DNA of 64,000 nt from a virus, in the IMG/VR virus record IMGVR_UViG_3300025697_000013, positions 1 through 64,000 of that record, one strand, 5' to 3'. The notes beneath the pieces are model-generated. The model did not search any database, had not been told where the DNA came from, and saw only the letters and a list, made by a program, of their open reading frames with translations. Positions 3,848-20,560 of the stretch are shown piece by piece. How positions within the stretch are numbered: position 1 is the stretch's first letter; each line of letters begins with the position of its first letter. Both the position numbers and the translations under genes were made by a program.

Positions 3848-3890
3848 ATGTCAGTAGCACAGCAACTCGGACACGTCCAGGCAGAGGCCT
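3848..3890 (+). repeat. 43-bp direct repeat, copy 1
   Basis: It matches 7526-7568 at 41 of 43 bases, differing only at the 8th and 19th base. Both copies begin at an ATG behind a GAGGAGG-type SD. Confidence 0.85.
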
Positions 3891-4940: not shown

Positions 4941-5566
4941 TGGACACGCAAGGAATCCTGGAGCAATTCGACAAGGACACAGCAGACCACGTCCTGACCG
5001 TCACCCACGACGAAGGCGTCCACCGCTGTATGTCGTACAGAAAACCCGGGACCGGATGCATGGGCGTCCAGGTGACGACTTGGCCTGGACACATCGCTAT
5101 CTCGGGGGACATGGGCTGCTACGTCTTCTCGCGGACTGAGGACATGTTCACGTTCCATCGGCGTCGTGAGGATGACGAACCGGGCAGGATCAGTTGGAAC
5201 TACTGGGCTGAGAAGGTCGTTGCCCAGTGTAAGACGGCCGGCGTCGACGAGTTCGACCCGGACTACTTCAAGGAGTGCGTCGAGGAGTGGACCAAGGAGT
5301 ACCTGGACGAGCACGACGATCTCACAGAAGAGGAGCAGGCTGACTTGGTTGCCGCCGTCAACGACGACGTGCTCAGTGCTCGGTTCGACGGCGAGCACGC
5401 AGCGTGCGCCGCGCTGTACGGGGGTGAGTGCGGGGGCCATGGCAACATCTTCCCCGAGGCCTGCGATTGGCCGAGCTTCCGACAGTACACACACCACTTC
5501 ATCTGGGCCTGCTACTGCATCGAGCGGGTGATTGATGTGTACGACGAGGCCAAGGCCAGCCAGTGA
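4940..5566 (+). CDS. Conserved-looking phage hypothetical protein
   Basis: 208 aa, start coupled to the upstream stop. The N-terminal half contains a TTWPGHIAISGDMGCYVFSR stretch followed by an EDMFTFHRR motif, an arrangement I associate with a widespread uncharacterised phage family. The C-terminal half is rich in Cys, His and Trp (CGGHGNIFPEACDW and WACYCIERV). Probably soluble. Function unknown. It precedes a nuclease-like gene in the same operon. Confidence 0.75.
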   Translation: MDTQGILEQFDKDTADHVLTVTHDEGVHRCMSYRKPGTGCMGVQVTTWPGHIAISGDMGCYVFSRTEDMFTFHRRREDDEPGRISWNYWAEKVVAQCKTAGVDEFDPDYFKECVEEWTKEYLDEHDDLTEEEQADLVAAVNDDVLSARFDGEHAACAALYGGECGGHGNIFPEACDWPSFRQYTHHFIWACYCIERVIDVYDEAKASQ

Positions 5567-6408
5567 GCGCCATCGAAACCACGTCGCAACTCCTCAACCT
5601 CCTGCGGCAGAAGCATTCGCAGAAGGACGGGGCATGGATCTACGTCGAGGAAGTGCCGTCTGCCACCGGATCGTCGTACTGGTCTGGCCGGTCCTTCGAC
5701 GCCGTCGCACTGGGCTGTTGGGATTCCAACCAGCGCCAGGTCATCATCTACGAGGTCAAGGCGTCCAGGGGCGACTTCGCACGGGAGCTCCAGAATCCGG
5801 CGAAGCGCCAGACGGCCATGAAGCTCGCCAACGAGTTCTACTTCGTCACACCCCACGGGCTCGTCAGAGACGATGAGATCCCCGAGGCCTGTGGCCTGAT
5901 CGTGATGACCAAGAACGGGGCGAAGCTCAGGACGGTGAAGCGGGCACAGCAGCGCCACGAGGATCGGACGGAGATCCCTCTCGCTTGGGCGACGGCGCTC
6001 CTGCGGCACCAGGCGAAGGCGATTGAGGAGCTCGCCCGTAGCTACCGATACGCAGGCAAGGACCTCACGGAAGACGACCTACAGGTGTTGATCCGGGAGA
6101 AGGCCCCTGCGTATGTCATGAAAGAAATCCGCGATGCTCAACTTCAGGCATCCAAGCAAGTGCAAGATGATGTACGGAACCGGATCGGAGAGTTGGAGTT
6201 GCCTATCCGCGATGCCCTGGGACTGGATCTCACGGCCGCGCCTGGACGACTGAATTACTGGCAGATCACCCAAGCGTTGCAGCGCCGGATCCAGCATCCA
6301 CCCATGAATGGAGTCGGACACATGCCGGGGCAACTGCGGCGGTGGGCTGCCGAGATGGATAAGTATCTGGACTGGGCGCGTGAAGCAAAATCAGGAGACC
6401 CCGAATGA
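5563..6408 (+). CDS. MmcB-like PD-(D/E)XK nuclease domain protein
   Basis: 281 aa from a GTG at 5563 coupled to the upstream stop. Residues 40-105 carry the restriction-endonuclease-fold core: D46 in SFDAVALG, then E64 and K66 in the IIYEVKASRGDF strand, followed by AKRQTAMKLANEFYFVTP. This matches the D...E-x-K layout of MmcB-type nuclease domains. The rest is helical. The D-ExK triad is intact, so it may be active, degrading or nicking host or phage DNA. Fold assignment is good; substrate is unknown. Confidence 0.7.
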   Translation: MSAIETTSQLLNLLRQKHSQKDGAWIYVEEVPSATGSSYWSGRSFDAVALGCWDSNQRQVIIYEVKASRGDFARELQNPAKRQTAMKLANEFYFVTPHGLVRDDEIPEACGLIVMTKNGAKLRTVKRAQQRHEDRTEIPLAWATALLRHQAKAIEELARSYRYAGKDLTEDDLQVLIREKAPAYVMKEIRDAQLQASKQVQDDVRNRIGELELPIRDALGLDLTAAPGRLNYWQITQALQRRIQHPPMNGVGHMPGQLRRWAAEMDKYLDWAREAKSGDPE

Positions 6409-7178
6409 ACCGCACCGGCATAGAATACTGCGACTTCACATGGAATCCAAACTCGGGATGCTCTCACGTCTCCGCAGGGTGTGACCACTGCTGGGCCCGC
6501 CGCATGGCGACGCGACTGGCAGGCCGTGTTGGCTACGACAAGGACGAGCCGTTCCGACCGACGTTCCACCCGGACCGGCTCGACCAACCACTGCGGAGGA
6601 AGAAGCCCGCGGTGATCGCGGTGGGATTCATGGGGGACCTGTTTCACCCGTCGCTTCCGAACGTGGCACGGTACGCCATCCTCGATACGATGGGACAGGC
6701 GCCGCAGCATCAGTTTCTTCTCTTGACCAAGCGCGCCCGCCACATGGCCTTCTTCTCCGCGCTGCATGGCGTCGTCTGGCCCGACAACGTCTGGCTCGGG
6801 GTGTCCGTCGAAGACCAGGCCACGGCCGATGAACGGATCCCCGCGTTGGTGTCCGTGACGGGGGGCGCCGGGAAGTGGGCCAGCATCGAACCCATGCTCG
6901 GGCCGGTGGACCTCGACATCGACATCGGGCAGGGTGTCGGCGATGTGGGCATGGACCGCCTTGATTGGGTTGTCGCCGGCGCGGAGAGCGGCCCCGGTCA
7001 CAGGCCCATGGAATGGGAGTGGGCCAACGATATCCAACGAGCATGCCGCGACGACCGTGTGCCGTTCATGCTCAAACAAGCCTACTGCGGGAATCAACTC
7101 GTCTCGCTGCCTGGGCTCGGCGACGAGGCATGCGACGACAACCCGGCGCGGGACGCGCTCAAGGAAGGTGGACGATGA
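6405..7178 (+). CDS. Phage Gp37/Gp68 (DUF5131) three-Cys protein, copy A
   Basis: 257 aa, ATGA-coupled to the nuclease-like gene. It opens with the family hallmarks: a WNPNSGC strand then C-x6-C-x2-C (CSHVSAGCDHCW), followed by GFMGDLFHPSLP, an LLTKR strand, NVWLGVSVE and an SIEPMLGPVDL segment, the usual order for this family. The three Cys could ligate an Fe-S cluster as in radical-SAM-like barrels; that is inference. A second, longer member lies at 15767-16729, so the phage carries two. Confidence 0.85.
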   Translation: MNRTGIEYCDFTWNPNSGCSHVSAGCDHCWARRMATRLAGRVGYDKDEPFRPTFHPDRLDQPLRRKKPAVIAVGFMGDLFHPSLPNVARYAILDTMGQAPQHQFLLLTKRARHMAFFSALHGVVWPDNVWLGVSVEDQATADERIPALVSVTGGAGKWASIEPMLGPVDLDIDIGQGVGDVGMDRLDWVVAGAESGPGHRPMEWEWANDIQRACRDDRVPFMLKQAYCGNQLVSLPGLGDEACDDNPARDALKEGGR

Positions 7179-7516
7179 GTGAGATCAGGCAACTCGACGA
7201 GGCGATCCTGCACTGCGGCGAGGTCGCGACGAAGGGCAGGGACTGCGCTGCGGACCACGAGCAGCTCCGCTCCTGGCTCATGGATCTCCGACGCCTACGC
7301 GCCATCTTCCCCCGAATCCTGAATGCCCTCTGCAATGGCTCGGGCTGTCTACCCGAGGCGTCTGTGGAATTCATGGAAGGGATCCCCGACGAGGTGCGGG
7401 CCGAGGTCCAGAAGTGGAGGTACCTTGCCTCCGACCCCGCGCAGTACACAGAGAAGGACCCACCCGGACCGGGTGGACCGTACGCGTACAACGGCGGGCA
7501 CTGCGAGTGCCATTGA
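7175..7516 (+). CDS. Hypothetical protein
   Basis: 113 aa, ATGA-coupled to the gene before. The N-terminal half is helical (DHEQLRSWLMDLRRLRAIFP). The C-terminus is Pro/Gly-rich and ends GGHCECH, a possible small metal site. No family is recognised. Confidence 0.7.
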   Translation: MSEIRQLDEAILHCGEVATKGRDCAADHEQLRSWLMDLRRLRAIFPRILNALCNGSGCLPEASVEFMEGIPDEVRAEVQKWRYLASDPAQYTEKDPPGPGGPYAYNGGHCECH

Positions 7517-7525
7517 GGAGGAACC

Positions 7526-7568
7526 ATGTCAGCAGCACAGCAATTCGGACACGTCCAGGCAGAGGCCT
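7526..7568 (+). repeat. 43-bp direct repeat, copy 2
   Basis: The partner of 3848-3890, 41 of 43 bases identical. This is the copy followed by a full-length gene. Confidence 0.85.
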
Positions 7569-8089
7569 TCTGCCTCATGTGGTACGCGCCCAACCCGAAC
7601 CGTGGATCCAACTACGAGCGGATCTGGAACTCCAGGGACGGCGTGACCCCGTTCATCATCTCTGCGAAGGACAATCCCAAGCAGGAGATGCAGCACGTCC
7701 AATGGAGCGCCGACCAGTACGACCCGTTCCACGTCCCGCAGGTGGGGGACCGGATCTTCGTGACCGCGACTAGGGAGAACATGCATCTGCTGGCAGTGGA
7801 CTTCGTCGACCGCTTCTGGGACTCCGAGCAGGGGCCGCCGATGAATGACTCCTACGCCACCAAGGAGGAGGCAGTGGAGGGGATGCTCCAAAGCTGGCTC
7901 GGGGATGGGAACCAGCCCACCATCGTCGAGGTGACTCCGATGATGCAGGAGCAGTTCAAGAAGCGGGTTGAATCGGGGGAGGTCCACCTGGAGGTCCTGG
8001 CCGGCCTGATCGGGAAGACCCCCAAGGACAAGCTCGCTCAGGTCGCAGACCTGGTTGACGTGCTGAGGGTTGTCCCGCCTGCCTGCTGA
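7526..8089 (+). CDS. Hypothetical protein, last gene of the rightward early operon
   Basis: 187 aa with GAGGAGG before the ATG. The soluble alpha/beta N-terminal part contains WYAPNPNRGSNYERIW; a helical C-terminus follows. Its first 43 bases are duplicated at 3848. No family is recognised. It converges on the HTH gene at 8108, with only 18 bases between them and no clear hairpin. Confidence 0.7.
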   Translation: MSAAQQFGHVQAEAFCLMWYAPNPNRGSNYERIWNSRDGVTPFIISAKDNPKQEMQHVQWSADQYDPFHVPQVGDRIFVTATRENMHLLAVDFVDRFWDSEQGPPMNDSYATKEEAVEGMLQSWLGDGNQPTIVEVTPMMQEQFKKRVESGEVHLEVLAGLIGKTPKDKLAQVADLVDVLRVVPPAC

Positions 8090-8107
8090 GTTATCGTTTC
8101 AGGAATA

Positions 8108-8350
8108 TTACGCGGTCAGTTTTTCAACACCGTCGTCTGCCTGCCGCTGCGCCCGCTCCCAAGCCCTGGACTCGTAGAGCCAGTCGAAGAAATCGTCTAG
8201 GTCGAAGGCGTGGGCTCTGCCGCGGGTCAGGGTCACCTTCCAGCCGCGGACAGTCGCGATGTACTGGACCGCCTGCTGGGTCACCCCATAGAGGCGCTGG
8301 GCCTCCGGTGCTGTGATGTAGCCAGGCGGGGAGTCGTAGGGGCGATCCAT
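8108..8350 (-). CDS. Small helix-turn-helix (excisionase/MerR-like) DNA-binding protein
   Basis: 80 aa. The core YITAPEAQRLYGVTQQAVQY is a winged-HTH of the excisionase/MerR type: a 'which module applies' helix then a recognition helix, followed by an RGRAHAFDLDDFFDWL wing/helix. It is the last gene of a four- or five-gene leftward operon under the 9.3-kb promoter. It is a candidate regulator, possibly of the dispersed TCGACG palindromes, or a recombination directionality factor for the recombinase at 18.4 kb. Confidence 0.75.
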   Translation of the reverse strand: MDRPYDSPPGYITAPEAQRLYGVTQQAVQYIATVRGWKVTLTRGRAHAFDLDDFFDWLYESRAWERAQRQADDGVEKLTA

Positions 8351-8469
8351 TAGAGGTGCCTGCGACGCTGCTCGATGTCGTCCTCCGCACTGGGCTCCAG
8401 GCGCCCGTCACCCATCGTCACCGTCACTCGCATACCTCGATGGAGCGAGTGCTTGGGTTGGCTCTGCAT
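8350..8469 (-). CDS. 39-aa peptide
   Basis: ATG at 8469 with AAAGGAG upstream; TAA overlaps the next ATG as TAATG. The sequence is polar and ends in an acidic then basic helix (SAEDDIEQRRRHL). The SD and the coupling support translation. Function unknown. Confidence 0.55.
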   Translation of the reverse strand: MQSQPKHSLHRGMRVTVTMGDGRLEPSAEDDIEQRRRHL

Positions 8470-8471
8470 GA

Positions 8472-8702
8472 TCATTCTCCTTTGGCCTTGGCGATGGCCG
8501 CGGTCGCCATCACCTGGTTCTCATGCCGTACCAGCAGCGCACGCAGGAAACGGGCAAGGTCTGTGGCCTCCCCGTATTCCTCGCTGGTAGCCATATGTAT
8601 GCTGGTGCCCCCGTCGCGTCGTGGCCAGCAGGGTGAAATCTCGATGGCGAACCTATCGACTTTAAACATGGGCCTGTTGCGGACTTCCCCGATTTTCCTC
8701 AT
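8472..8702 (-). CDS. Hypothetical protein
   Basis: 76 aa; ATG at 8702 chosen for the AAGGAGG 5 bases upstream. A beta-rich N-terminus (RPMFKVDRFAIEISPCW) precedes a C-terminal helix. No family is recognised. Confidence 0.65.
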   Translation of the reverse strand: MRKIGEVRNRPMFKVDRFAIEISPCWPRRDGGTSIHMATSEEYGEATDLARFLRALLVRHENQVMATAAIAKAKGE

Positions 8703-8712
8703 CCCGTCCTCC

Positions 8713-8967
8713 TTACATCCAGCAAACGATGTCGATATCAGCGTCCGAGGCCAGCGCCTCTGCGCCGGGGCCGCTGATGGTGATCTCGGGGTAGGCCCCG
8801 TCCATGTCGTCGTCGTATGCCTCCGCCGTGGGGTACGCACAGATCCGTCCAGCCGCGTCGCCGTAGGCCGTGGGGTCGTCCCAATCGCCGATCAGCGCCC
8901 GGAGGTCGGCCTCGGTGGCCTCGGTAATCGTGGGCTGTCCGTTCATTTGCTTGATCGTCGCCTTCAT
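8713..8967 (-). CDS. Acidic hypothetical protein
   Basis: 84 aa and very acidic, with an Asp-rich region (AYDDDMDGAYPEI) and a C-terminal ASDADIDIVCWM. High negative charge is common in phage DNA-mimic or inhibitor proteins, but that is only a suggestion. It lies between two small genes of the same operon. Confidence 0.65.
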   Translation of the reverse strand: MKATIKQMNGQPTITEATEADLRALIGDWDDPTAYGDAAGRICAYPTAEAYDDDMDGAYPEITISGPGAEALASDADIDIVCWM

Positions 8968-8989
8968 CTCGTCCCCCTATTTGCTCGCC

Positions 8990-9016
8990 AAAACAGCCAG
9001 CGCCCTTGCTGCGCTG
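8990..9016 (-). terminator. Possible weak hairpin terminator or attenuator
   Basis: On the minus strand CAGCGC, a 7-base loop and GCGCTG form a 6-bp stem, followed a few bases later by TTTT. It sits between the operon's first gene (9046-9231) and the next. It could reduce read-through into the distal genes. The U-run is short. Confidence 0.3.
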
Positions 9017-9045
9017 CCCCGGCGGGCGATCAATTCACGGGCCTT

Positions 9046-9231
9046 TTAGCCCGCCATCTCAACGCGCTGGCTCCACTCCTGAACGATCGCTAAGCCGCCA
9101 TCTCTGCCGACGCTCACGCGGGACTCTGACAGCATCTCTTTGCCGACCAGCTTGCCGCCGCGGTTATGGGCGATCCAGAGGCGGTTGCTCAGCTCGGTCT
9201 GCGAATGCGCTCTCACTGTGATTGTTCTCAT
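9046..9231 (-). CDS. Small hypothetical protein, first gene of its operon
   Basis: 61 aa from the ATG at 9231, chosen for GGAGG 5 bases upstream; an upstream in-frame ATG at 9276 would sit about 7 bases from the -10. The protein is mixed beta/alpha (TITVRAHSQTELSNRLWIAH). No family is recognised. Confidence 0.65.
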   Translation of the reverse strand: MRTITVRAHSQTELSNRLWIAHNRGGKLVGKEMLSESRVSVGRDGGLAIVQEWSQRVEMAG

Positions 9232-9282
9232 GGCGTCCTCCGGGTTGGTCTTGCTGGTTGTTGTTCCCTTCTTCATGTCCAC

Positions 9283-9310
9283 ATCATAGCAAACCCTGCG
9301 TCCTTGTCAA
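9283..9310 (-). promoter_or_regulatory. Strong leftward promoter
   Basis: Minus strand TTGACA (9310-9305), 16-bp spacer and TATGAT (9288-9283), the best sigma70 match in the window. The 5' leader to the 9231 start is about 45 bases. Confidence 0.8.
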
Positions 9311-9319
9311 CACTTTTTT

Positions 9320-9334
9320 TCGACGATACGTCGA
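9320..9334. promoter_or_regulatory. 15-bp inverted repeat, operator-like
   Basis: TCGACG-ATA-CGTCGA, perfect arms, 9 bp upstream of the -35 and flanked by T/A runs on both sides. This is the canonical copy of the dispersed element. Confidence 0.8.
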
Positions 9335-9356
9335 TTTATTTTTTCACCACCAGCGC

Positions 9357-9385
9357 TTGCATTTCCTCGCCGGATCGTCTACAGG
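9357..9385 (+). promoter_or_regulatory. Putative rightward promoter for the lipoprotein gene
   Basis: TTGCAT (9357-9362), 17-bp spacer and TACAGG (9380-9385). The boxes are only partial matches, but spacing and position before the isolated plus-strand gene at 9444 fit. Confidence 0.4.
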
Positions 9386-9443
9386 TAGACCACGGACGGA
9401 CGGCCAAGGTGGTCGTCGCAACGTCGAACGAAGGAGGTAGAGG

Positions 9444-9824
9444 ATGAGACACGGAAGGATTCTGATGCTCGCGGTCATAGCCCTGGCTCTCTGCGGGTGC
9501 AAGGCAACGATCGACTACAGCCGTCTGGCCAGCTCGGTCACTGCGGCCCTGCCCATAGCGGAGGACTACGCGGTGGACGGCTGCCAGCAGATCACGATCG
9601 CCCCTGCGATCACGGTCAACTGGGAGAGCGACGGGGAGGGTGACGGGATGCCGAAGCCGCGGCCCACCTTCGGGGGTGGGGTTTTCATCGGATGTCTGGC
9701 ACAAGGTGAGCTGATCGAGTTCCAGTGCCACGAGGCCAAAACCGATGACGAGAAGGCGTGGTGCGAGAAGCTCCGGCTGTGGGTCCTCAAGATGAGCGGA
9801 GAGCCAACCACACCCACCGAGTAG
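9444..9824 (+). CDS. Predicted lipoprotein
   Basis: 126 aa with AAGGAGG before the ATG. A signal peptide (RILMLAVIALALCGC) ends in a lipobox L-C-G-C, so Cys19 should be lipidated after export. Four further cysteines in the mature part may form disulphides. It stands alone on the plus strand between two leftward operons, as superinfection-exclusion or lysogenic-conversion 'moron' genes often do. An outer-membrane spanin is less likely because no i-spanin is adjacent. Confidence 0.75.
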   Translation: MRHGRILMLAVIALALCGCKATIDYSRLASSVTAALPIAEDYAVDGCQQITIAPAITVNWESDGEGDGMPKPRPTFGGGVFIGCLAQGELIEFQCHEAKTDDEKAWCEKLRLWVLKMSGEPTTPTE

Positions 9825-10086
9825 CCCGCCTCAGATCTCCCGCACTAGAAAGATCCCCACGTCCCACCCCAATCGCTGAAAGCTCCGCACCAGGTAGATC
9901 GGCTCGCAGACCATGGTGTAACTCCTGGGCCCGGGACCGCGCAGACGCTTCGACTGCGGCTGCCATGCTCTCGAAGGCTTTCACCTGGGCCTCCACCAGA
10001 AGCGGCGCAGCGTCCCGCAGACCATCAGCCACGGCGCGCAGGCGCTCTGCCAGCCTCAAACCCTGCGGTTGTTTCCAGGTCGCCAT
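9787..10086 (-). CDS. Hypothetical protein; 3' third probably not the real frame
   Basis: The frame gives 99 aa from an ATG 3 bases below the tailspike stop. Residues 1-58 are a convincing helix (AERLRAVADGLRDAAPLLVE). After residue 58 the frame becomes low-quality sequence and runs 38 bases into the convergent lipoprotein gene. From about 9950 the +1 frame encodes better-looking sequence (9831-9914) that stops cleanly at 9831. A frameshift, or two overlapping genes, is likely. Confidence 0.5.
   Translation of the reverse strand: MATWKQPQGLRLAERLRAVADGLRDAAPLLVEAQVKAFESMAAAVEASARSRAQELHHGLRADLPGAELSAIGVGRGDLSSAGDLRRATRWVWLALRSS
9831..9914 (-). CDS. 27-aa frame overlapping the 3' end of the gene at 10086
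   Basis: ATG at 9914 with AGGAG 7 bases upstream. The peptide MVCEPIYLVRSFQRLGWDVG followed by a short end looks protein-like, and the stop falls 6 bases short of the convergent gene. The frame is also open upstream for about 20 codons. It may be a separate peptide or the C-terminus of the upstream protein after a +1 shift. Confidence 0.4.
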   Translation of the reverse strand: MVCEPIYLVRSFQRLGWDVGIFLVREI

Positions 10087-10089
10087 TAT

Positions 10090-11337
10090 CTAGTCTGCCT
10101 TGAGGACAACGAAATCCTCGTAGTCGGCCGAATTCGGCGCTGCCGGATGGACACTCATAGTTGGATCCGGGCCGTTCGTACTTACCCATGAAGTACAGAC
10201 ACCAGTAACGATAGCGCGTGCTCGATTGTAGACATAAGGACGCACAACGGTAAGCCACGGTAGTAATTCATGGGCACCGATGTCCCAGCCGGCACCCTGG
10301 GGTCTTGGTGTCTTTACAATATCGTCGTCCACTATTCCAGCTAGATTTCTCCCGTTGTCTATTAGGGGAGATCCTAGTAAGAAAGTGAAGTCGTTGTTCG
10401 GGGCATCGATGAACTGCGGATCCCCAAACTGGCTGTTGACCGCCGCTGTATAGAGAGCAGAGTCAACGCCGTTGTCGAAGAACAGGTTGTTTGAGGGCGC
10501 ATTGGGAGGAGGTATGTGTCCTACCCCGCCTCCGAAAATTCCAGTACCGCAATTGACAAAAGCGTTGTTATCAAGAACATTGAAGCCGTCGTCTGGTCCA
10601 AGCTGCACGCCTCTGACACAGTTGTAGAACGTATTGTTGAGCACCCCGCCAGTCTTACAGAAACGATCCTCGTCGATGCCATAGCTCAATCCGGCGAAAA
10701 TACAATTGCGGACAGTTCCACTACGCAGGGTGGTTATGCCTTTACCGGGATTGACGCCATCGCCAATGAACCTACAACGCTCTGCTAAGTGCGTGGTTTC
10801 ATAAAAGCTGTATAGCCCGTGCCCCGACTCCAGCAAGAACGTGCTATCTTTGGCGGTGAAATTAATCAAAACATTGCCCGGATAAATCCCATGGCCCGTC
10901 CCGGTACAAGTAAATGTACACCCCTGTGCAACCCATCCATCAGCGACTCCTACACCTCGACGGATTCCATAATCGCCAGTAGCAACGGCGAAGTCGCAGT
11001 CGTCGATAACGCCATCGTTACACGCCTGGATCGTGAGATACCACTCGACCGTTTCGCCTCCAAGATCAAACTTCAATCCCTGAAAAAGCGACGTATCGGA
11101 TTCGATCGTCCATATCTGCGTAAGCGCACCGTTGGGTCTGACCGTGATCAGTCCCTCGTCACCGGGAGCTGGCTTGATTGTCAGCCAATCCAGTAGCATA
11201 TGCGTGTGTGGCTCGTCGAAGTTGGTCGGGGCACCCGCTGTAGCGTGGTAAATCAACGTGTCCCCTGCGCCAGAGGCCGCGTATGCCGCCGCTGCCGTGG
11301 CGAAGGGGTGTCCAAAACCAATGTGCCGATCTGCCAT
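10090..11337 (-). CDS. Right-handed beta-helix tailspike-like protein
   Basis: 415 aa with GAGGAG before the ATG. From about residue 95 the protein consists of beta-helix rungs rich in G, N, D and C: DGVIDDCDFAVATGDYGIRR, then NCIFAGLSYGI, NNTFYNCVRGVQL and NNAFVNCGTGIFG, ending in a DIGAHE motif usual at the end of secreted beta-helix (choice-of-anchor type) domains. It probably binds or degrades a host surface polysaccharide; no catalytic residues can be assigned. It is encoded directly after the fibre at 12639 and far from the main tail module. Confidence 0.75.
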   Translation of the reverse strand: MADRHIGFGHPFATAAAAYAASGAGDTLIYHATAGAPTNFDEPHTHMLLDWLTIKPAPGDEGLITVRPNGALTQIWTIESDTSLFQGLKFDLGGETVEWYLTIQACNDGVIDDCDFAVATGDYGIRRGVGVADGWVAQGCTFTCTGTGHGIYPGNVLINFTAKDSTFLLESGHGLYSFYETTHLAERCRFIGDGVNPGKGITTLRSGTVRNCIFAGLSYGIDEDRFCKTGGVLNNTFYNCVRGVQLGPDDGFNVLDNNAFVNCGTGIFGGGVGHIPPPNAPSNNLFFDNGVDSALYTAAVNSQFGDPQFIDAPNNDFTFLLGSPLIDNGRNLAGIVDDDIVKTPRPQGAGWDIGAHELLPWLTVVRPYVYNRARAIVTGVCTSWVSTNGPDPTMSVHPAAPNSADYEDFVVLKAD

Positions 11338-11340
11338 TGA

Positions 11341-12639
11341 TCAACTCCTCACCAGTTCGACGGAACCGAAGTGGGCGGTATCAATGTCCTGGGCTCCGCT
11401 CTCGATCTCCAGACGCCCCTCATAGATTTTCGCCGTGTCCTGGAGATTTCCGGCCGCGGCCCCTACTGTCAACGCGCCAGAGGTAGCCAGCGTTGCGCTC
11501 GTCGCCGTAGTGGTCACGTCAGCGCCGGTCACGTACTCCCCGTCTGTGAGGTTGTAAAACCGTGCATGGGCCGTGAGGGGTGCCGTAGGACCTGACACCC
11601 ACCCCACCATGCGGAACGTCCATGCCCCGGACGCGTAGCCCCCCGCGTCGAGGACGAACTGCCCATGTGCCAGCGGAACCCCGACGTCGTGTGAAATCGT
11701 CTGCCCCGCCGCCAGGCGGAACACCAAAACCCCACCTAGGACGGAGGGCTTGTCGGTGATCCCGGCCCATGGGGCGGCGGCTGCCGTCGCTGCGTTCGTG
11801 GCATTCGCAACGGCCGTGTCGATGTCTCCGCCGTCGTGGTGGTGTCCCACCGCGGACGCCCCGATATCGCCCGGTGCCATAGCATCAGGCTGCCCCGTCG
11901 CGTGTGTACCAGCGTGCGCCGTCGGTGTCCGGGCGTCGGAGTTACGGGCGTCGGCGTCGGTGACGTATTTGTTCGCTGCATCCGGGCTTCCGCTGGTGCC
12001 GGCGAGTGCTGCCTTCTCGTCCGCGGTGGGGAGGGTCGCATGGGTATGCGCCGCTGTCGCTGCGCCGATGTCGCCGGCTGCTATCGCGTCCGGTTGCCCC
12101 GTGGCGTGCGTTCCCGCATGGACCGCAGGTGTCCGGGCGTCGGAGTTCCTCGCATCTGCGTCAGTGACGTACTTGTTCCCCGCCCCGGGGGTGCCTGATG
12201 TGCCTGGAAGGGCTGCCTTCTCTCCCGCTGTGGGGATGTTGCCATGCGCGTATGTGCCCTCATGCGCTCCCACGGCCGCCGCCGCCTCTCCCGATTGATC
12301 ATACGCGGCGGGCAACGCGCCGCCCAACTTGGCCGCGTCGTCGGCGTTGGCTGCTGTGGTTGCATGGTCCGCTGCGTCCACCCGCCCGTCGTCGTTCGCG
12401 TCGTAGACCGACTTCGTCATGTCCCCGAATGCGCCACCCGTGACATCCTCGAAGGTCAGGTTGTTGCCGCGGACCACCGGGACCTTGCCTTCGCCGAAGC
12501 TCGCGTCGTCGAAGAACAGCCCGGTGATGGCCTCCCAGAAGAGCCGGAGCCCCTCGACGTAGCGATCCTCCTTCGGCAGGTCTGCAAGCTCTGTCAGGTA
12601 TCCCTGGATGGCGGTTGGAATGCGTCCAATAAAGCTCAT
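11341..12639 (-). CDS. Repeat-containing tail fibre-like protein
   Basis: 432 aa. The N-terminus (residues 1-60) likely attaches to the virion. Residues 136-271 hold two near-identical 68-residue repeats with GNKYVTDADARNSDARTP and HAGTHATGQPDA motifs, typical of Ala/Thr/Asp-rich collagen-like or shaft repeats in phage fibres. The C-terminal 150 residues form a beta-rich knob (GGVLVFRLAAGQTISHDVGV). A calcium-like DANDDGRVDAADH (dockerin-type loop) lies at residues 80-92. It pairs with the adjacent beta-helix spike. Confidence 0.8.
   Translation of the reverse strand: MSFIGRIPTAIQGYLTELADLPKEDRYVEGLRLFWEAITGLFFDDASFGEGKVPVVRGNNLTFEDVTGGAFGDMTKSVYDANDDGRVDAADHATTAANADDAAKLGGALPAAYDQSGEAAAAVGAHEGTYAHGNIPTAGEKAALPGTSGTPGAGNKYVTDADARNSDARTPAVHAGTHATGQPDAIAAGDIGAATAAHTHATLPTADEKAALAGTSGSPDAANKYVTDADARNSDARTPTAHAGTHATGQPDAMAPGDIGASAVGHHHDGGDIDTAVANATNAATAAAAPWAGITDKPSVLGGVLVFRLAAGQTISHDVGVPLAHGQFVLDAGGYASGAWTFRMVGWVSGPTAPLTAHARFYNLTDGEYVTGADVTTTATSATLATSGALTVGAAAGNLQDTAKIYEGRLEIESGAQDIDTAHFGSVELVRS
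11836..12234 (-). repeat. Two tandem ~200-bp coding repeats
   Basis: Codons 136-203 (12031-12234) and 204-268 (11836-12030) of the fibre gene encode nearly the same sequence, offset by 68 residues. The DNA is diverged more than the protein, so the repeats are retained by selection. Confidence 0.75.
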
Positions 12640-12693
12640 GGGCAGTTCTCCCCCTCTCAGGAGTCTAGGGGTATCACGCTCGCAGAGTTTGCG

Positions 12694-12975
12694 TCAACCA
12701 CGGAGGTCCTCCCGGTATCGTCTCCCGCTGAGTGGATCCACCCACACACCGGGAACTAAATCTGGATTCGATGGCCTATGGATCGCTCCGGTCACGTAGG
12801 GAGAATTCATAATGCTGGGGCGCGGACACTTCTGCTTGGGGAGCTGATCCTCCTTGGGAGGACACCCCTGACCACGATGCTTCCCCCGTGTGGGCTTCTT
12901 TGGCTTGGGGTGGGGCGGTGCCCCCTTCCCCGCGACAAGGCAACCAGGGGCTGCCTGTGCGAGTAGATCGAACAT
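12694..12975 (-). CDS. Pro/Lys-rich small protein
   Basis: 93 aa with GGGAGGACAAAG before the ATG. A short hydrophobic start (MFDLLAQAAPGCLVAGKG) is followed by a Pro/Lys/Arg/Cys-rich central part (PPHPKPKKPTRGKHRGQGCP) and a C-terminal DPLSGRRYREDL. The basic, disordered composition suggests nucleic-acid or protein binding. Unknown function. Confidence 0.55.
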   Translation of the reverse strand: MFDLLAQAAPGCLVAGKGAPPHPKPKKPTRGKHRGQGCPPKEDQLPKQKCPRPSIMNSPYVTGAIHRPSNPDLVPGVWVDPLSGRRYREDLRG

Positions 12976-13193
12976 CTTTGTCCTCCCTGGTCGCGCTCAT
13001 TGTATCGATGGAGATCGGAGGACACAAGGGGTAGGGAGGAGCGGGGCACGCCGAAGGCAGTGCCAACAACCAGGAAAGGAGGATCCCTCTGAGAAGCACC
13101 CCGCCCTCTCTACGAGGTCAGTGTATCAGCCGGGAGCCTGGATTCAAGGAGTTTGAAAGGGTGGCAGGCGCCGGGACCGGGGGGACGTCAAGG
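12976..13193. other. 218-bp gap without a convincing gene
   Basis: It lies between the genes at 13194 and 12975. A minus-strand GTG frame beginning near 13099 is open but overlaps the next gene in another frame. No good promoter or hairpin is seen. Confidence 0.5.
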
Positions 13194-13526
13194 TCAGGAG
13201 GTGGGGATCGCGTCCCGGCAGTCGTCGCAGAGCCCGTCGACCAGGTCATCCCTGTGAAACCCTACCCCGCAGCCGGCACAGGCGACGATCCTGGACCGGA
13301 CCTCCCGGGCCGCAGCGAGGACCGCGTTCCTGCCGGCAGAGCAGGATATCGTTCGGACCCGGGCGTCCTCGAGGACCAACTCCGGAGCTGCCGCGTGGAC
13401 CTTCGCCAGTGCGTCCACCAACCCGCAAGCGCGGACGCGGACCACGATCTCCACGGAGAGCGCGTCTGGGTGCTCTGGCTTCCTGAGTGCGGCAGACACC
13501 GTGTAGATTTCTGGGTTCTTGACCAT
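13194..13526 (-). CDS. Hypothetical protein with a C-terminal zinc-ribbon-like motif
   Basis: 110 aa from the ATG at 13526, coupled to the upstream stop (TGATG). The N-terminal domain (IYTVSAALRKPEHPDALSVE) is alpha/beta. The C-terminus carries two CxxC pairs (CAGCGVGF and LCDDCRD), a likely zinc site. No family is recognised. Confidence 0.65.
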   Translation of the reverse strand: MVKNPEIYTVSAALRKPEHPDALSVEIVVRVRACGLVDALAKVHAAAPELVLEDARVRTISCSAGRNAVLAAAREVRSRIVACAGCGVGFHRDDLVDGLCDDCRDAIPTS

Positions 13527-13621
13527 CACAGTCCCACCATGATCCAGCAACCAACGATCACCGCGGGGATCCCGAAGGCGAGGATGAAGCGGATCATCGT
13601 GGCGTCGTGTGTTCGGTTCAT
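13526..13621 (-). CDS. 31-aa single-TM peptide
   Basis: ATG directly after the exonuclease stop (TAG-ATG) with GGAGGG 6 bases upstream, and its TGA overlaps the next ATG. A polar start of 8 residues precedes one TM helix (IRFILAFGIPAVIVGCWIMV). SD and tight coupling on both sides support expression. Function unknown. Confidence 0.6.
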   Translation of the reverse strand: MNRTHDATMIRFILAFGIPAVIVGCWIMVGL

Positions 13622-14344
13622 CTAGCCCTCCTCTCTAGGTGGCTGCTTCGCCAGCCACTCCTTGAACTCACGGTCATGGCGATCGAAGTCGACACGGAGC
13701 CGGCGCTCGGCCTCCATCGCATCCGCGGTCAGATAGTCCTGGACGATCCCCCCGTACTTCCTCGAATACAACAGATCCCAGAGGACCCGAACCACCATGA
13801 CGCAGTCGGCGCTCCCCTTCTGAGGCTTCCCGTCGTCGGCAACGTTCTGGAGGTCGCTGCAATCGATCCCGAGCTTCGTGCAGATGTTCGGAAGCTTGTG
13901 CCTCCCTTTCCCAGGCCAGTAGCCGCAGATCTTCTCGTGCTTGATCAAGGGCCAGGTGTCCAGGATCGGACGGATCGCCACAACCCGCTGCCAGTCCTCC
14001 GCCAACTCCTTGTCCAGCATCGGCACGTCGTAGCCGTAGACGTTCTGGCCGCAGAGCACATCGGCGCTCTCGAGGAAGGCCAGGAAGCGGGGAGCGACTT
14101 CCGTGAGGGGTGGCTTGCCTGCCACCATAGCGTCCGTGATCCCGTTGTGCGCGCTGGCCTCCTCCTCAATCGGGATCCCTGGGTTCACCAACGCAGAGGC
14201 CCGGTAGAGGACCTTCCCGCCCTTGAACTTCACCGCGGCGATCTGGCAGATCCGATCCTTCTCCAGGTCGAGGCCAGTGGTCTCAAGGTCGAATGCGCAG
14301 ATCGTCTTCTTCCACCAGGGCTCTGGTTTGAAGAGGTCAGACAT
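13622..14344 (-). CDS. DnaQ-like DEDDh 3'-5' exonuclease
   Basis: 240 aa; ATG at 14344 chosen for GGAGG 6 bases upstream. Exo I motif FDLETTGLD (D19, E21), then AHNGIT, Exo II-type NVYGYDVPMLDKEL, and a C-terminal HKLPNICTKLGID with a later D in GSADCVMV complete the RNase H-like exonuclease fold. It probably proofreads or processes DNA ends during phage replication; a stand-alone proofreading subunit is unusual since no polymerase is seen in this window. It overlaps the small gene upstream by 8 bases. Confidence 0.85.
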   Translation of the reverse strand: MSDLFKPEPWWKKTICAFDLETTGLDLEKDRICQIAAVKFKGGKVLYRASALVNPGIPIEEEASAHNGITDAMVAGKPPLTEVAPRFLAFLESADVLCGQNVYGYDVPMLDKELAEDWQRVVAIRPILDTWPLIKHEKICGYWPGKGRHKLPNICTKLGIDCSDLQNVADDGKPQKGSADCVMVVRVLWDLLYSRKYGGIVQDYLTADAMEAERRLRVDFDRHDREFKEWLAKQPPREEG

Positions 14345-14549
14345 CGGTGGCCTCCGGTGGACCGATACCAATCCGCTTCTTGGCCTCGGCGCGAATCTGT
14401 GCACCAGTCCAGTTGTAAGGGGCCCCGCCATTGGCTTCAGCCTTGGTCAGCAACTCGGAGATAACGTCCATCAGCCGCTCTGCTGTGGGGCGGTCCACTC
14501 CCTCGACATCCATAATCAACTCGACCGGATGCAGTTGCTTCCCGTTCAT
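14337..14549 (-). CDS. Small helical hypothetical protein
   Basis: 70 aa, ATGA-coupled to the gene before. Almost entirely helical (DRPTAERLMDVISELLTKAE). It is tightly linked to the exonuclease gene that follows. Unknown function. Confidence 0.65.
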   Translation of the reverse strand: MNGKQLHPVELIMDVEGVDRPTAERLMDVISELLTKAEANGGAPYNWTGAQIRAEAKKRIGIGPPEATDV

Positions 14550-14878
14550 GACTCAGCCTTCGGGGGCTTCCGGTACTGCACCGCTCCACCGACCTTCTCG
14601 TAGTAGCAGATCAGCTCCACCCCGAGGAAGACCGAGGCCGCCCCGCCGTTGTGGAGCTGGCGCGTCGTGTCCCGGGCGATCGCCTTCGCCTCCGGGATCG
14701 GCACCGCCCTTGTGGTGACCTGGCTCTCGGGGTGCCGGACCGTCCCGTAGAAGACGTGGCCCTTGGGTTTCACCACCCGCAGGCGCTCCACCTTCTTCAG
14801 CCAGCGACGCTTCCGCGGGCTCGGCTGGAATGCAGGGTTGGGGCTCCCGCCCTCCGGGGCCTTTGCTTTCTTGTCCAT
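14546..14878 (-). CDS. Basic hypothetical protein
   Basis: 110 aa with GAGGAGG before the ATG. A basic, probably disordered N-terminus (PSPRKRRWLKKVERLRVVKP) is followed by an alpha/beta domain. It may bind nucleic acid. No family is recognised. Confidence 0.65.
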   Translation of the reverse strand: MDKKAKAPEGGSPNPAFQPSPRKRRWLKKVERLRVVKPKGHVFYGTVRHPESQVTTRAVPIPEAKAIARDTTRQLHNGGAASVFLGVELICYYEKVGGAVQYRKPPKAES

Positions 14879-14881
14879 CGT

Positions 14882-15028
14882 CTACCTCCTCGGCCAGCGG
14901 CCGTTGTCGTTCGTCCAAAGGTGGGGCACCAGGGGAGCGCCGCGATCCAGCAATCCCCCCAGCGCGGGGGTGGGGTAGTTGCGGTGCCCCGGCCGGGTGC
15001 CTCCGCGGTTGTTGTCGACCATCGGCAT
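14882..15028 (-). CDS. 48-aa peptide
   Basis: Start overlaps the upstream stop (TGATG). Rich in Pro, Gly, Arg and Asn (NRGGTRPGHRNYPTPALGG) and probably disordered; it ends RWPRR where the next gene's SD (AGGAGG) begins. Translation is supported mainly by coupling. Confidence 0.45.
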   Translation of the reverse strand: MPMVDNNRGGTRPGHRNYPTPALGGLLDRGAPLVPHLWTNDNGRWPRR

Positions 15029-15195
15029 CAGTCCATCTCGTCCAGCGTGCAGTCGTCGGGGAACTCATCGAACTCAGGAGTCGATTCCCACCGGCGCCGC
15101 GTCACCGGACAGTAGCCACCACCGCTCCCATCGCCATTGGGCTGGAAGTTTGGGCAGCTCGTGCACTCGGTGATGTACAGGACGTAGAGCTTCAT
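15028..15195 (-). CDS. 55-aa Cys-containing protein, first gene of its operon
   Basis: GGAGG 5 bases before the ATG and a promoter 26 bases further up. The N-terminus MKLYVLYITECTSCPNF has a CxxC pair, and single Cys follow near residues 29 and 49: a possible small metal or redox site. Acidic C-terminus. Unknown function. Confidence 0.6.
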   Translation of the reverse strand: MKLYVLYITECTSCPNFQPNGDGSGGGYCPVTRRRWESTPEFDEFPDDCTLDEMD

Positions 15196-15220
15196 CAATA
15201 CCTCCGGTCAACCTGGGACC

Positions 15221-15249
15221 GTTTTACGATAGGAGGAGGAGGCTGTCAA
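15221..15249 (-). promoter_or_regulatory. Leftward early promoter
   Basis: Minus strand TTGACA (15249-15244), 17-bp spacer and TAAAAC (15226-15221), then the shared block GGTCCCAGGTTGAC ahead of the SD of the 15195 gene. Confidence 0.7.
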
Positions 15250-15258
15250 GAAAAAAGA

Positions 15259-15273
15259 TCGACGGGTCGTCGA
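15259..15273. promoter_or_regulatory. 15-bp inverted repeat, operator-like
   Basis: TCGACG-GGT-CGTCGA, perfect arms, 9 bp upstream of the -35, next to an A/T-rich run. It lies at the very end of the preceding gene (15279-15749). Confidence 0.75.
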
Positions 15274-15278
15274 ATTGC

Positions 15279-15749
15279 CTAGAAGGGACTGTCGGGGGGG
15301 TCGACCTTGGTCTTGCTGTCGCCGCTGGGACCAGGCTCCGTGCCGAGGTCCAACCCGGGCTTCTTCGCAGCCGCGGTGGGGGGTACCTGCGCCTCGGGCT
15401 CAGGGGCCGGGTCCTTGGCAGTGTCAGCCTTCCGGGGCTTCATGGGGGCGCTGACGGTCTCAGGCGGCGCCTCGGGTTCCTCTGGCTCCTCGGGGCCGCC
15501 GTTGTTCCCCTCGTCCCCATCGCCACCACCCAGGGAGGTCACCGTCGCGGTGTTTGACATCGTCGAGACGACCTCCACCAGGGCCATGTCCCGTTGGACG
15601 ATGTAGCCGAAGCCTGGGATCTCCGGCTGCTCCCGCGCCCACCGCACAGCGTCCTGGGTGTTCCCTCCCAGATCCGGATGCTCCACCGGGATCCGCGCGC
15701 CGCTCTTGTGTACCAACATCACAACCAGCTTTCCGAAATTCTTGGCCAC
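15279..15749 (-). CDS. Hypothetical protein with an SSB-like C-terminal tip
   Basis: 156 aa from a GTG at 15749, chosen because AGGAGG lies 6 bases upstream. An N-terminal domain of about 60 residues (VAKNFGKLVVMLVHKSGARI) is followed by a long Pro/Glu/Ala-rich linker and ends KVDPPDSPF. The acidic residues and final P-F resemble the SSB C-terminal tip that docks SSB partners; the true SSB of the same operon ends DDESFPF. It may compete for or share SSB-interacting proteins; this is inference. Confidence 0.6.
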   Translation of the reverse strand: MAKNFGKLVVMLVHKSGARIPVEHPDLGGNTQDAVRWAREQPEIPGFGYIVQRDMALVEVVSTMSNTATVTSLGGGDGDEGNNGGPEEPEEPEAPPETVSAPMKPRKADTAKDPAPEPEAQVPPTAAAKKPGLDLGTEPGPSGDSKTKVDPPDSPF

Positions 15750-15766
15750 TTTGCACCTCCTCATGT

Positions 15767-16729
15767 TTACTTAGCCATCAACGAGGCGGGGCCCACCGGG
15801 ACCTCGCGGATACGCTTGCCGTCGAGGGTGTCCTTCCCCTCACCATCGGGGGCCTTCCCATTCCCCCACTGCTTGAACCACATGGGGACCCCGGCCGCCC
15901 CGCAGACCTCCCGGATGCTTCGCACCCAGCCGGGCTCTATCGGCCGCAGGCTCCCCGTCTCTCCGCCCACCAGGATCCAGTCGATCGACGGGGCTTGCCG
16001 GAACTCGCTGTCCCTCGGGTGCCCCACCGTCCGGACGCCGCGCACGTTGATCTTCGGGAAGAGTGCGTGCGCCAAGATCACGGGCTCGATCTCTCTGAGC
16101 AAGGGCTCCAGCGACAAGACGCGGTGAGCCACCTCCGTGTCATTCAGGAACCGTCCCCGCTCATTCAGGGTCGCTGCATTTTCCGCCGATGTTCCGAGCC
16201 AGAGATTAGGGAGCGGGAACCGGATGCGTCTCATCCTCTCGCCGCAGGAATGCGAGCAGGGCTGCTCTTCGCGAAGCCCCGCAGACCACGAATCCAGTCC
16301 ACCGCAGTGCATGCAGATCCCGAGGACATCGCCGTATTGCTCCCGCATCTCCCGTTCTTGGTCCACCAGCGAATTCAGGAAGTCACGAGCTCGCTGGATC
16401 CGTTTCGTGAGGATGATGAACGTGTGCTGCGGGCACGCGGCGATCACCGCGAGGACCCGACGAAGCACCGCGTCGGGGACGTCCCGGTGGAAGGGATCCC
16501 CCATGCTCGGTGCGAAGTACACCGTGGGCTTCTTGCGATCGAGCGGTGCAAGGATCTTCCCCTCCTCGATCACCACCGAGAACTGGTCGGGCTTGGGCGG
16601 ATACCCCACGCGCCCCTGTAGGCGATGGGCCATCTTCTTCGCGTAACAGAATTTGCAACCGTCCGAGACCTGAGTGCAACCGTGCATCCAGTTCCAAGAA
16701 TGCTTCCACCACTCGCTTCCTTCAGGCAT
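15767..16729 (-). CDS. Phage Gp37/Gp68 (DUF5131) three-Cys protein, copy B
   Basis: 320 aa with AGGAGG before the ATG. Same core as copy A: WNWMHGC then C18-x6-C25-x2-C28, FAPSMGDPFHRDVP, IILTKR, NLWLGTSAE, SLEPLL and ILVGGETG. It also has an insertion at about 120-165 with C139-x2-C142 and C158-x3-C162, a probable zinc knuckle that copy A lacks. The two copies are clearly paralogous but diverged, so they likely have different partners. Biochemical function is unknown; a radical-SAM-like chemistry is only suggested by the three Cys. Confidence 0.85.
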   Translation of the reverse strand: MPEGSEWWKHSWNWMHGCTQVSDGCKFCYAKKMAHRLQGRVGYPPKPDQFSVVIEEGKILAPLDRKKPTVYFAPSMGDPFHRDVPDAVLRRVLAVIAACPQHTFIILTKRIQRARDFLNSLVDQEREMREQYGDVLGICMHCGGLDSWSAGLREEQPCSHSCGERMRRIRFPLPNLWLGTSAENAATLNERGRFLNDTEVAHRVLSLEPLLREIEPVILAHALFPKINVRGVRTVGHPRDSEFRQAPSIDWILVGGETGSLRPIEPGWVRSIREVCGAAGVPMWFKQWGNGKAPDGEGKDTLDGKRIREVPVGPASLMAK

Positions 16730-16741: not shown

Positions 16742-17068
16742 TCAATCGTCCTCGTGGTTCACCAACGTCTTGCGACCAGCTTCCCGCTCGAGGACCGTGT
16801 CAACCTCACCCTGGACCGTAGCCAAGGCGATCTGCCCCAACCACTGCGGGATCACGATCTCGCTCCCCTCCAACTGATCCAGGACCATCTCCACAACTGA
16901 CCGGCGCCGCTTCGCTAGGACATCCCCATCCACGAATGCGCCGGGCTCACCGTTCTGGTACGCGCCTGCCTCGTAGAACGCTCGATCAAGCTGCGCCCCG
17001 AACTCGGTGACCCACGCTTGGGCCCGGTCCCTGGCAACGTCTTTGACCGTGCGGGTCGGGGTGGTCAT
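16742..17068 (-). CDS. Hypothetical protein
   Basis: 108 aa; ATG at 17068 overlaps the methyltransferase stop (ATGA). Helical, with acidic patches (DRAFYEAGAYQNGEPGAFVD). Coupled to the methyltransferase upstream, so perhaps a partner. No family is recognised. Confidence 0.65.
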   Translation of the reverse strand: MTTPTRTVKDVARDRAQAWVTEFGAQLDRAFYEAGAYQNGEPGAFVDGDVLAKRRRSVVEMVLDQLEGSEIVIPQWLGQIALATVQGEVDTVLEREAGRKTLVNHEDD

Positions 17069-17751
17069 GGCGCGCACACCTCCCGCAATCGTCCCTCAGC
17101 CATCTGCACCGCACCCTCCTTCGCATCCACCCCGTGGAAGCGCCGGCCCTGCCGCACCACGGCCTCCCCGAACGCACCCGACCCCATGAACGGGTCCAGG
17201 ACCAGCTCGCCCTCCTGCGTGCTCTGGCGCACCAGGAGCTCGCCGAACCCGACGGGCTTCTCCGTGGGGTAGCCACCGCGCACCCGCTTCCATGCCTGGA
17301 CGTTGGGCTCCCCCAGGTCCGCGATCCGCCGCTTTCCCTTCTCGAGGAACATCACCATCTCGTACCTGGATCGGTAGTGGTAGCCCATCCCCATCACCAT
17401 CTTGTCCCAGATGATCGGGGTCCAGACGGTGAAGCCCGCCGCCTCGGCCGCCGTGGCCACGCACCGCCAGCCAGTCTCCCAGTCGCAGAAGACGTAGCAG
17501 TGTCGGTCCCGCTTCAAAATGCGGTAGAGGTGCAGGATAACCTCGGCGAGCTGCTCGTTCGAAATCACGTCGAACCACTCGCCGTTCTTGAGCCGGGTCG
17601 TGGTACCCTTCGCTCGGTGCTTCTCCATGCTCTCGTAGGGGGGATCGGTCAAGATCAAATCGTAGTGATCATCGGGAGCCCACTGCAACCACTCGAAGAC
17701 GTCCTGACAGAAGAGCCGGAAGCCTGGGCCGATGCAAGTGGGCGTAATCAT
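17065..17751 (-). CDS. DNA adenine-type methyltransferase
   Basis: 228 aa. Catalytic motif IV LILTDPPYESM (DPPY at 36-39) comes first and the SAM-binding motif LVLDPFMGSGAFGE comes last (about 183-196), the permuted beta-class order; DPPY favours N6-adenine. The middle contains the IIWDKMVMGMGYHYRSRYEM strand usual in phage Dam-like enzymes. No restriction partner is nearby, so it is a solitary phage enzyme, probably protecting against host restriction. Confidence 0.88.
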   Translation of the reverse strand: MITPTCIGPGFRLFCQDVFEWLQWAPDDHYDLILTDPPYESMEKHRAKGTTTRLKNGEWFDVISNEQLAEVILHLYRILKRDRHCYVFCDWETGWRCVATAAEAAGFTVWTPIIWDKMVMGMGYHYRSRYEMVMFLEKGKRRIADLGEPNVQAWKRVRGGYPTEKPVGFGELLVRQSTQEGELVLDPFMGSGAFGEAVVRQGRRFHGVDAKEGAVQMAEGRLREVCAP

Positions 17752-17754: not shown

Positions 17755-18198
17755 CTAGAAGGGAAAGCTCTCGTCATCTTTGCTTCCACCGCCATCGCCG
17801 GAGTTGCCAGCCGGGGCCTCGCCATCGCCACCGCCGTCCTGGGATCCACCGCCCTGTCCGCGGCCGCCCTGCTTGTCGAGGAAGACGACGATGAAGGCGT
17901 TGACCTCGCTTGTGTAACGGTCATTGTCATCGCGGTCCTTCCACTTCCGGGTCTGCATCTTCCCCTCGACATAGACCAGGCTGCCCTTCTGGAGATACTG
18001 GTTGCAGCGCTCAGCGAGCTTGCCCCATACCACGATGTTGTGCCACTCGGTCTTGCTTTGCCACTCGTCGCCCTGCTTGTATCGCTCGTTAGTGGCGACC
18101 GAGAAGTTGCACACCGCCGCTCCGGAGGGGATGTTGCGGAGGTCTGGGTCCTTGCCAAGGTTCCCAACAATGGTAGCCTTATTGACGCTTCCTGCCAT
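17755..18198 (-). CDS. ssb: Single-stranded DNA-binding protein
   Basis: 147 aa with AGGAG before the ATG. N-terminal OB fold of the bacterial SSB type (VNKATIVGNLGKDPDLR, then WHNIVVWGKLAE and GSLVYVEGKMQTRKW), a Gly/Asp/Gln-rich linker, and the acidic tip DDESFPF that recruits replication and repair proteins. It is the first gene of the operon under the 18.3-kb promoter. A second, tail-less SSB lies at 24770. Confidence 0.93.
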   Translation of the reverse strand: MAGSVNKATIVGNLGKDPDLRNIPSGAAVCNFSVATNERYKQGDEWQSKTEWHNIVVWGKLAERCNQYLQKGSLVYVEGKMQTRKWKDRDDNDRYTSEVNAFIVVFLDKQGGRGQGGGSQDGGGDGEAPAGNSGDGGGSKDDESFPF

Positions 18199-19975: not shown

Positions 19976-20548
19976 TTATTTTAGGGCGGCGAATGCGCCC
20001 GCTGCGGGGTGGGCCAGGTCTGCGAGTTGACCAGCGACATTCTGGACACCAGGTCCCCTGGGAACCCATAGGCCCTGCGACCCCACCCACGGGATCGGAT
20101 CGGGAAGTGCGATCACGTCCTCCAGGTGCCAACTCCAGAGCCCCCGGATCGGTACTCGGGTGTCCCCCGTCAATCCACGGAAGTTGAAGTCCGTGGGGAG
20201 GGGAGCCTCCAGGCAAGGCGAATCCATGCCGTGGTGATTTCGGATCCGCACCGAGGTGGCCCTCCGGATCTCCGCGTGGGTGTCCATGAACGGAGCGCAC
20301 CGGGCCAGGCGTGCAACAGCCAGGACGAACCCCAGGGGTGGGTGCTCGTCGAGGTCCGCGCCTGCGATGATGAGGTTCCCAGTGACCGCCACCTCCTCCG
20401 GCCCCCACTTCTTCCCGGCGTGGATCAGCAGCCACCCCCGGAAGTGGGACCGCTTGGTTCGGGTCTCGATGGGCTTTTGTTCGGTGGCGATCAGCGTCGC
20501 CCATGGCTGGATCTGTGTCAGTCCGCGAATCGGTAGCATCTCGTTCAC
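19976..20548 (-). CDS. ASCH-domain protein
   Basis: 190 aa from a GTG at 20548, chosen because AGGAGG is 5 bases upstream. The opening MLPIRGLTQIQPWATLIATE followed by KPIETRTKRSHFRGWLLIHA is the ASCH signature (Q-P-W-A, then K-x-I-E-x-R, then a G-x-L-L-I-H-A strand). ASCH domains bind RNA, and some hydrolyse N4-acetylcytidine. The C-terminal half is less typical. In a phage it might act on tRNA, mRNA or modified nucleosides; the exact role is unknown. Confidence 0.8.
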   Translation of the reverse strand: MNEMLPIRGLTQIQPWATLIATEQKPIETRTKRSHFRGWLLIHAGKKWGPEEVAVTGNLIIAGADLDEHPPLGFVLAVARLARCAPFMDTHAEIRRATSVRIRNHHGMDSPCLEAPLPTDFNFRGLTGDTRVPIRGLWSWHLEDVIALPDPIPWVGSQGLWVPRGPGVQNVAGQLADLAHPAAGAFAALK

Positions 20549-20560
20549 TGAGTCCTCCTC

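Follow-up and report, generated by a model that had tools for sequence, protein, structure and literature searches.

A phage known from an 86,903-base IMG/VR record encodes two diverged proteins of the DUF5131 (Gp37/Gp68) family, here called A and B, which very probably are radical-SAM-type enzymes, judging by their modeled folds. The fuller reading, in which both are stand-alone phage radical-SAM enzymes that modify nucleic acid without a partner, stands in our judgment about evenly poised between right and wrong; its fold and cluster are predicted from the models, while we infer the substrate and the purpose.

Two diverged DUF5131 copies in one phage

The window, that is, the whole 64-kb stretch of DNA that was analyzed, is part of this record, and the entire record, which also encodes a portal, a baseplate, a DnaB-like helicase, and a RecD2-like helicase, holds no DUF5131 gene besides A and B (Table 1). 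The sequence-only reading had placed both open reading frames exactly, and its family assignment held: over their full length, the two proteins match Pfam DUF5131 (PF07505; A, E 1.7e-67 and 227.9 bits; B, E 1.8e-62 and 211.5 bits; gathering cut-off, 28.9 bits), and both match phrog_2045. The two share 31% identity over 287 aligned columns (E 2e-31), which rules out a recent duplication; a tree with A and B as one clade was not rejected (p-AU 0.50), in keeping with either an ancient duplication or separate acquisition.

In an alignment of 174 rows (A, B, and 172 relatives), the three cysteines of the C-x6-C-x2-C opening were kept in all 173 full-length rows, the single row without all three being a broken open reading frame. 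More than 50 columns reached at least 85% identity, including LTKR (107-110), S160, E162-P163, and K224, and the invariant residues turned out to be present in both copies, as had been claimed for the opening and the later motifs. Unlike typical members of the family, A and B occur as two copies in one phage and deviate more often from conserved columns (8 deviations in A and 7 in B at 54 such columns, the median being 1), and B adds an insert with four cysteines. Several of the deviations fall in the strand-2 motif, which presumably lines the active site and reads IAVGFMGDLF in A, FAPSMGDPF in B, and FVNSMSDLF in the family. Since the two copies are derived at different conserved columns, their deviations would suit specialized, possibly different substrates.

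The pair adds a new example to a known, uncharacterized family. Two DUF5131 genes were also found in Gordonia phage Bosnia (gp44 and gp68), at the phage loci L054 and L056, and at one bacterial locus, L105, and such a pair is therefore uncommon, not unique. L005 was ruled out as a two-copy locus, its two pieces belonging to one broken gene. Bosnia resembles our phage in carrying two copies, but these are not close kin of A and B, and neither has the Cys4 insert.

Copy A is accessory. A sister phage (G001), whose 86,604-base genome is colinear with ours, circularly permuted, and about 72% identical in DNA, lacks it. A lies within roughly 5 kb of sequence (window positions of about 3833 to 9218) in place of which the sister phage has about 1 kb. 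Homology to the sister phage ends 15 bases ahead of the left copy of a direct repeat (Table 1). The predicted nuclease gene that had been noted next to A overlaps it, and its MmcB-like identity comes from a PHROG match ("DNA repair protein," E 1.6e-22) and a Pfam MmcB-like match of 20.2 bits, under the 22-bit cut-off.

Copy B is a core gene under strong selection. Its orthologue in the sister phage is 87% identical in amino acids, B being the most conserved protein of more than 100 residues between the two phages, and its dN/dS against that phage (0.11, Nei-Gojobori) is below that of nearly all structural proteins. The extra insertion described earlier for B is real. It lies between the LTKR strand and the following strand, where B is about 48 residues longer than A, and its four cysteines are all retained in the orthologue; among the 174 aligned sequences, this CxxC-x15-CxxxC pattern is found in these two only. 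Insertions of at least 20 residues at the same site occur in 63 of the 174 and are common in phage members, and by the alignment the speciality of B is the Cys4 pattern only, not an insertion at that site. The AF2 model of the insert has several short strands (pLDDT of about 76 to 87), and the insert may reasonably be guessed to form a small zinc-binding element. As for the neighbors named for B, a DNA methyltransferase and a single-strand DNA-binding protein (SSB), both are present, but they are two and three genes away rather than adjacent. The ASCH-like protein further along the same row gave no direct match in a Pfam scan. Both A and B presumably lie in early operons.

Table 1. Features of the two DUF5131 copies and their surroundings (window positions)
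Feature	Position	Strand	Description or basis
Copy A	6405..7178	+	DUF5131 protein, 257 aa; predicted radical-SAM partial TIM barrel
Copy A motif codons, C19-x6-C26-x2-C29	6459..6491	+	Predicted 4Fe-4S ligands; sequence; family-invariant; directly past beta-strand 1
MmcB-like gene	5563..6408	+	Predicted DNA repair nuclease; overlaps start of A by 4 nt
Direct repeat, 43 nt, left copy	3848..3890	+	2 mismatches; with right copy, bounds most of the A segment absent in the sister phage
Direct repeat, 43 nt, right copy	7526..7568	+	Repeat comparison
Copy B	15767..16729	-	DUF5131 protein, 320 aa; predicted radical-SAM partial TIM barrel plus Cys4 insert
Copy B motif codons, C18-x6-C25-x2-C28	16646..16678	-	Sequence; conserved in family alignment
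Copy B insert, C139xxC142-x15-C158xxxC162	16226..16366	-	Predicted beta-rich, zinc-ribbon-like element; alignment and AF2 model
DnaQ-like 3'-5' exonuclease, B gene row	13622..14431	-	Profile match
N6/N4 DNA methyltransferase, B gene row	17065..17751	-	Profile matches (Pfam, PHROG)
SSB, B gene row	17755..18198	-	Profile match (Pfam)
ASCH-like protein, same row further along	19976..20566	-	E 2e-14 to the ASCH-domain gene adjoining DUF5131 in locus L004

Predicted fold and likeness to spore photoproduct lyase

In both AF2 models (pLDDT 90.6 for A and 87.2 for B), the chain folds into a partial (beta/alpha)6 barrel whose three cysteines lie on the loop past strand 1; six beta-alpha units with a cysteine loop in this place are the radical-SAM layout. 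When the models were compared with the PDB by Foldseek, the six best matches of B were all spore photoproduct lyase (SPL), a radical-SAM DNA-repair enzyme (probability 0.84 to 0.99), and SPL entries made up six of the top seven matches of A (0.75 to 0.96), all six solved SPL structures being among the best matches of each model. The fold match is a distant one, as E was only about 0.01 and the TM score about 0.4. Among predicted viral structures, many of the matches to the fold search were annotated Radical SAM. On the sequence side, NCBIfam TIGR04471 (radical SAM mobile pair protein A, rSAM_mob_pairA) matched nearly the whole of A (8e-16, 58 bits) and also B (5e-10, 39 bits), but both scores are far under the equivalog cut-off of 355 bits, and a search of the phage record for the other member of the mobile pair (TIGR04470) found none. 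Across the whole record, nothing matched Pfam Radical_SAM (PF04055) even at E <= 10, and a search by sequence for a solved relative gave none. The earlier suggestion of an Fe-S/SAM enzyme is thus well supported, as a prediction, by the modeled fold, the placement of the three cysteines, and SPL among the best PDB matches, and the sub-cut-off TIGR04471 match points the same way.

SPL (PF20903) heads the lists of solved folds for both A and B, and a profile alignment of DUF5131 with SPL pairs the cysteine loop, the S-x-x-D motif, and LTKR with VTKF. This profile match is weak (P 9e-4, probability 23%, with an SPL profile built from sequences mostly of the phylum of the L104 genome), while the control profiles gave P 0.036 (RlmN) and P 0.18 (TcmP). 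Identity to SPL is 11 to 13%, and the cluster motif differs, the C-x3-C-x2-C of SPL being missing from both A and B. The hydrogen-donor cysteine of SPL, which we take to lie before the T/S-S-D motif, aligns, within the same weak alignment, with a column that holds Ser in 97% of DUF5131 proteins, Ser in B, and Phe75 in A. Because DUF5131 does not conserve this cysteine, the likeness in fold does not imply SPL chemistry. A and B are probably radical-SAM-like and similar to SPL in predicted fold, yet not SPL.

The missing TcmP partner

The sequence-only reading had seen no TcmP, the known partner of the family, and had proposed a search of the rest of the genome; none was found with TIGR04474 at E <= 1 in the whole record or in the sister phage. 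At bacterial DUF5131 loci, a gene of the TcmP cluster, whose representative exceeds the TIGR04474 cut-off, was nearby in 56 of 80 cases, mostly overlapping or within tens of bases, compared with 9 of about 91 viral loci (Fisher p 1e-16); the exact ratio is rough, because the search patterns behind the cellular and the viral sample were not entirely the same. A and B belong to a nearly all-viral clade without a TcmP-linked member (60 rows, support 97; in the other tree, 31 rows, support 95). Taken together with the viral count, this clade makes the missing TcmP the rule for phages. No conserved partner gene was found in the phage clade, none adjoining DUF5131 in more than a few loci. In TcmP itself, a D-x-F-A-G-x-G / D-P motif pair, together with matches to RlmJ, the only ones obtained in a search for a solved relative and sub-threshold at E of about 0.7, suggests a methyltransferase-like fold.

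DUF5131-TcmP pairs are listed in PADLOC as the candidate phage-defense systems PDC-M41 (component A, TcmP; component B, DUF5131) and PDC-M30. Our copies match the DUF5131 component models (PDC-M41B, E 4e-58 for A and 3e-54 for B), but they come from a phage without TcmP. A counter-defense role for A and B is possible. If the bacterial DUF5131 and TcmP restrain or license one another, the phage protein might modify nucleic acid or bind TcmP, so that host pairs do not fire. The close pairing in cells, the PADLOC matches, and the fact that phages mostly retain the DUF5131 half alone agree with such a role. However, the PDC systems are candidates by association, and the phage clade lies deeply apart from the TcmP-paired clades and may therefore have a substrate of its own. 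We regard this explanation as possible, though doubtful.

Candidate substrates and significance

A nucleic-acid substrate for A and B seems to us somewhat favored. The idea of nucleic-acid modification, raised earlier from the DNA neighbors, was borne out in part, by indirect evidence: the distant fold kinship to SPL and the genes near DUF5131 in other phages. C5 methyltransferases lay within 2.5 kb of phage DUF5131 in 8 of 14 cases (expected, 2.7; p 0.001) and ASCH genes in 6 of 7 (expected, 1.3; p 1e-4), the null model placing genes uniformly, as if phage gene order were random, so that early-gene clustering alone may explain part of the enrichment. The base-modification enzymes among about 40 scanned proteins (of 98 called open reading frames) were methylases only, with no known hypermodification pathway.

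In the reading that we prefer, that of stand-alone nucleic-acid-modifying enzymes, cysteines 19, 26, and 29 of A and 18, 25, and 28 of B would hold a 4Fe-4S cluster, which would cleave S-adenosylmethionine to yield a 5'-deoxyadenosyl radical. Both proteins would come from a stand-alone phage DUF5131 lineage nearest to SPL in structure, and would modify bases of phage or host DNA, or of RNA, without a dedicated partner protein. B would be the core enzyme of the phage, and A an additional copy that can be swapped and whose active-site region is altered in another way. The two might plausibly serve as a shield against host nucleases, as orphan phage methyltransferases do.

Modification of tRNA or rRNA, which would aid translation or hide host RNAs from RNA-cutting defenses, is an unlikely alternative to this scheme. 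Many radical-SAM enzymes, such as MiaB and RlmN, act on RNA, ASCH domains have a PUA-like fold that is often RNA-linked, and their genes lie near phage DUF5131, which some phage annotators label "RNA methyltransferase." Nevertheless, the RlmN profile matched less well than that of SPL, a conserved RNA-specific partner was not found, and the neighbors of B are DNA-replication genes. Rather improbable is the notion that each phage DUF5131 protein is the orphaned half of an anti-phage system of two genes, with an undescribed radical-SAM nucleic-acid modification that hides the phage and with A and B covering two variants of the system. Least probable is an SPL-like repair, with A, B, or both undoing a photoproduct or some other base lesion in phage DNA, since, for all that SPL heads the lists of solved folds and that SSB, an exonuclease, and the MmcB-like repair nuclease are neighbors, two retained copies fit it poorly and Ser, or Phe in A, stands at the hydrogen-donor column.

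In the library that was searched, no paper named DUF5131, and TcmP appeared in tables only. The family is widespread in phages and bacteria. With an SPL-like predicted fold, a split between TcmP-paired cellular and stand-alone phage members, and a core copy kept under strong selection, an "unknown protein" becomes a testable enzyme, and with two diverged copies in one phage, nature itself offers a comparison of substrates. Should a nucleic-acid base prove to be the substrate, these proteins might bring a new modification to light and account for a candidate defense system.

Direct repeat around the first DUF5131 copy

Most of the segment around DUF5131 copy A that is missing from the sister phage is enclosed by the two copies of a 43-nt direct repeat, each of which contains a start codon. 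The repeat, like the segment itself, is absent from the sister phage.

Coordinates of the features discussed
Feature	Position	Remark
43-nt direct repeat, left copy	window 3848-3890	pairs with right copy, 2 mismatches
43-nt direct repeat, right copy	window 7526-7568	pairs with left copy, 2 mismatches
ORF with IS605 OrfB-type helix-turn-helix	window 2042-2689	PF12323 match
YspA/SLOG-family gene	window 2704-3441	
TCGACG-ATN-CGTCGA palindrome	window 9320-9334, 19960-19974	exact
TCGACG-ATN-CGTCGA palindrome	window 1923-1937, 15259-15273, 18275-18289	one mismatch
723-aa fusion protein	L012:6769-8940 (record 70769-72940)	minus strand
ASCH-domain gene ≤2.5 kb from DUF5131	L004, L040, L054, L055, L078, L080	viral loci
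TcmP adjoining DUF5131	L154:4970-5992	example genome locus

Early gene rows and other genes of the phage

The palindrome, also carried by the sister phage, occurs at five sites in the window versus 0.06 expected, and at two of them is followed by TTTATTTT; it is a candidate shared operator or terminator for the early gene rows. The helix-turn-helix ORF sits immediately upstream of the YspA/SLOG-family gene. Two 185-nt tandem copies (75% alike, 11858-12246) lie within ORF 11341-12639, the 432-aa product of which is a repeat-built protein. The 723-aa protein, a D12-class adenine methyltransferase domain fused to a Peptidase_S78_2 prohead-protease domain, is kept by the sister phage at 74% identity.

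Company of DUF5131 elsewhere

Two DUF5131 genes per locus were also found elsewhere (L105, L054, L056, and L019), the paired genes differing by 1.3 to 3.3 changes per site. Among the seven phage records having an ASCH-domain gene, six carried it close to DUF5131; Mycobacterium phage Bipper gp80 and Gordonia phage Bosnia gp60 bear a similar annotation. The three-Cys-motif partner protein (TcmP) beside DUF5131 looks methyltransferase-like, judging from its DxFAGxG and DP motifs and sub-threshold RlmJ matches. In a study of NolR in Sinorhizobium, a table of expression data names a TcmP gene together with the Hna defence gene (PMC12445080).
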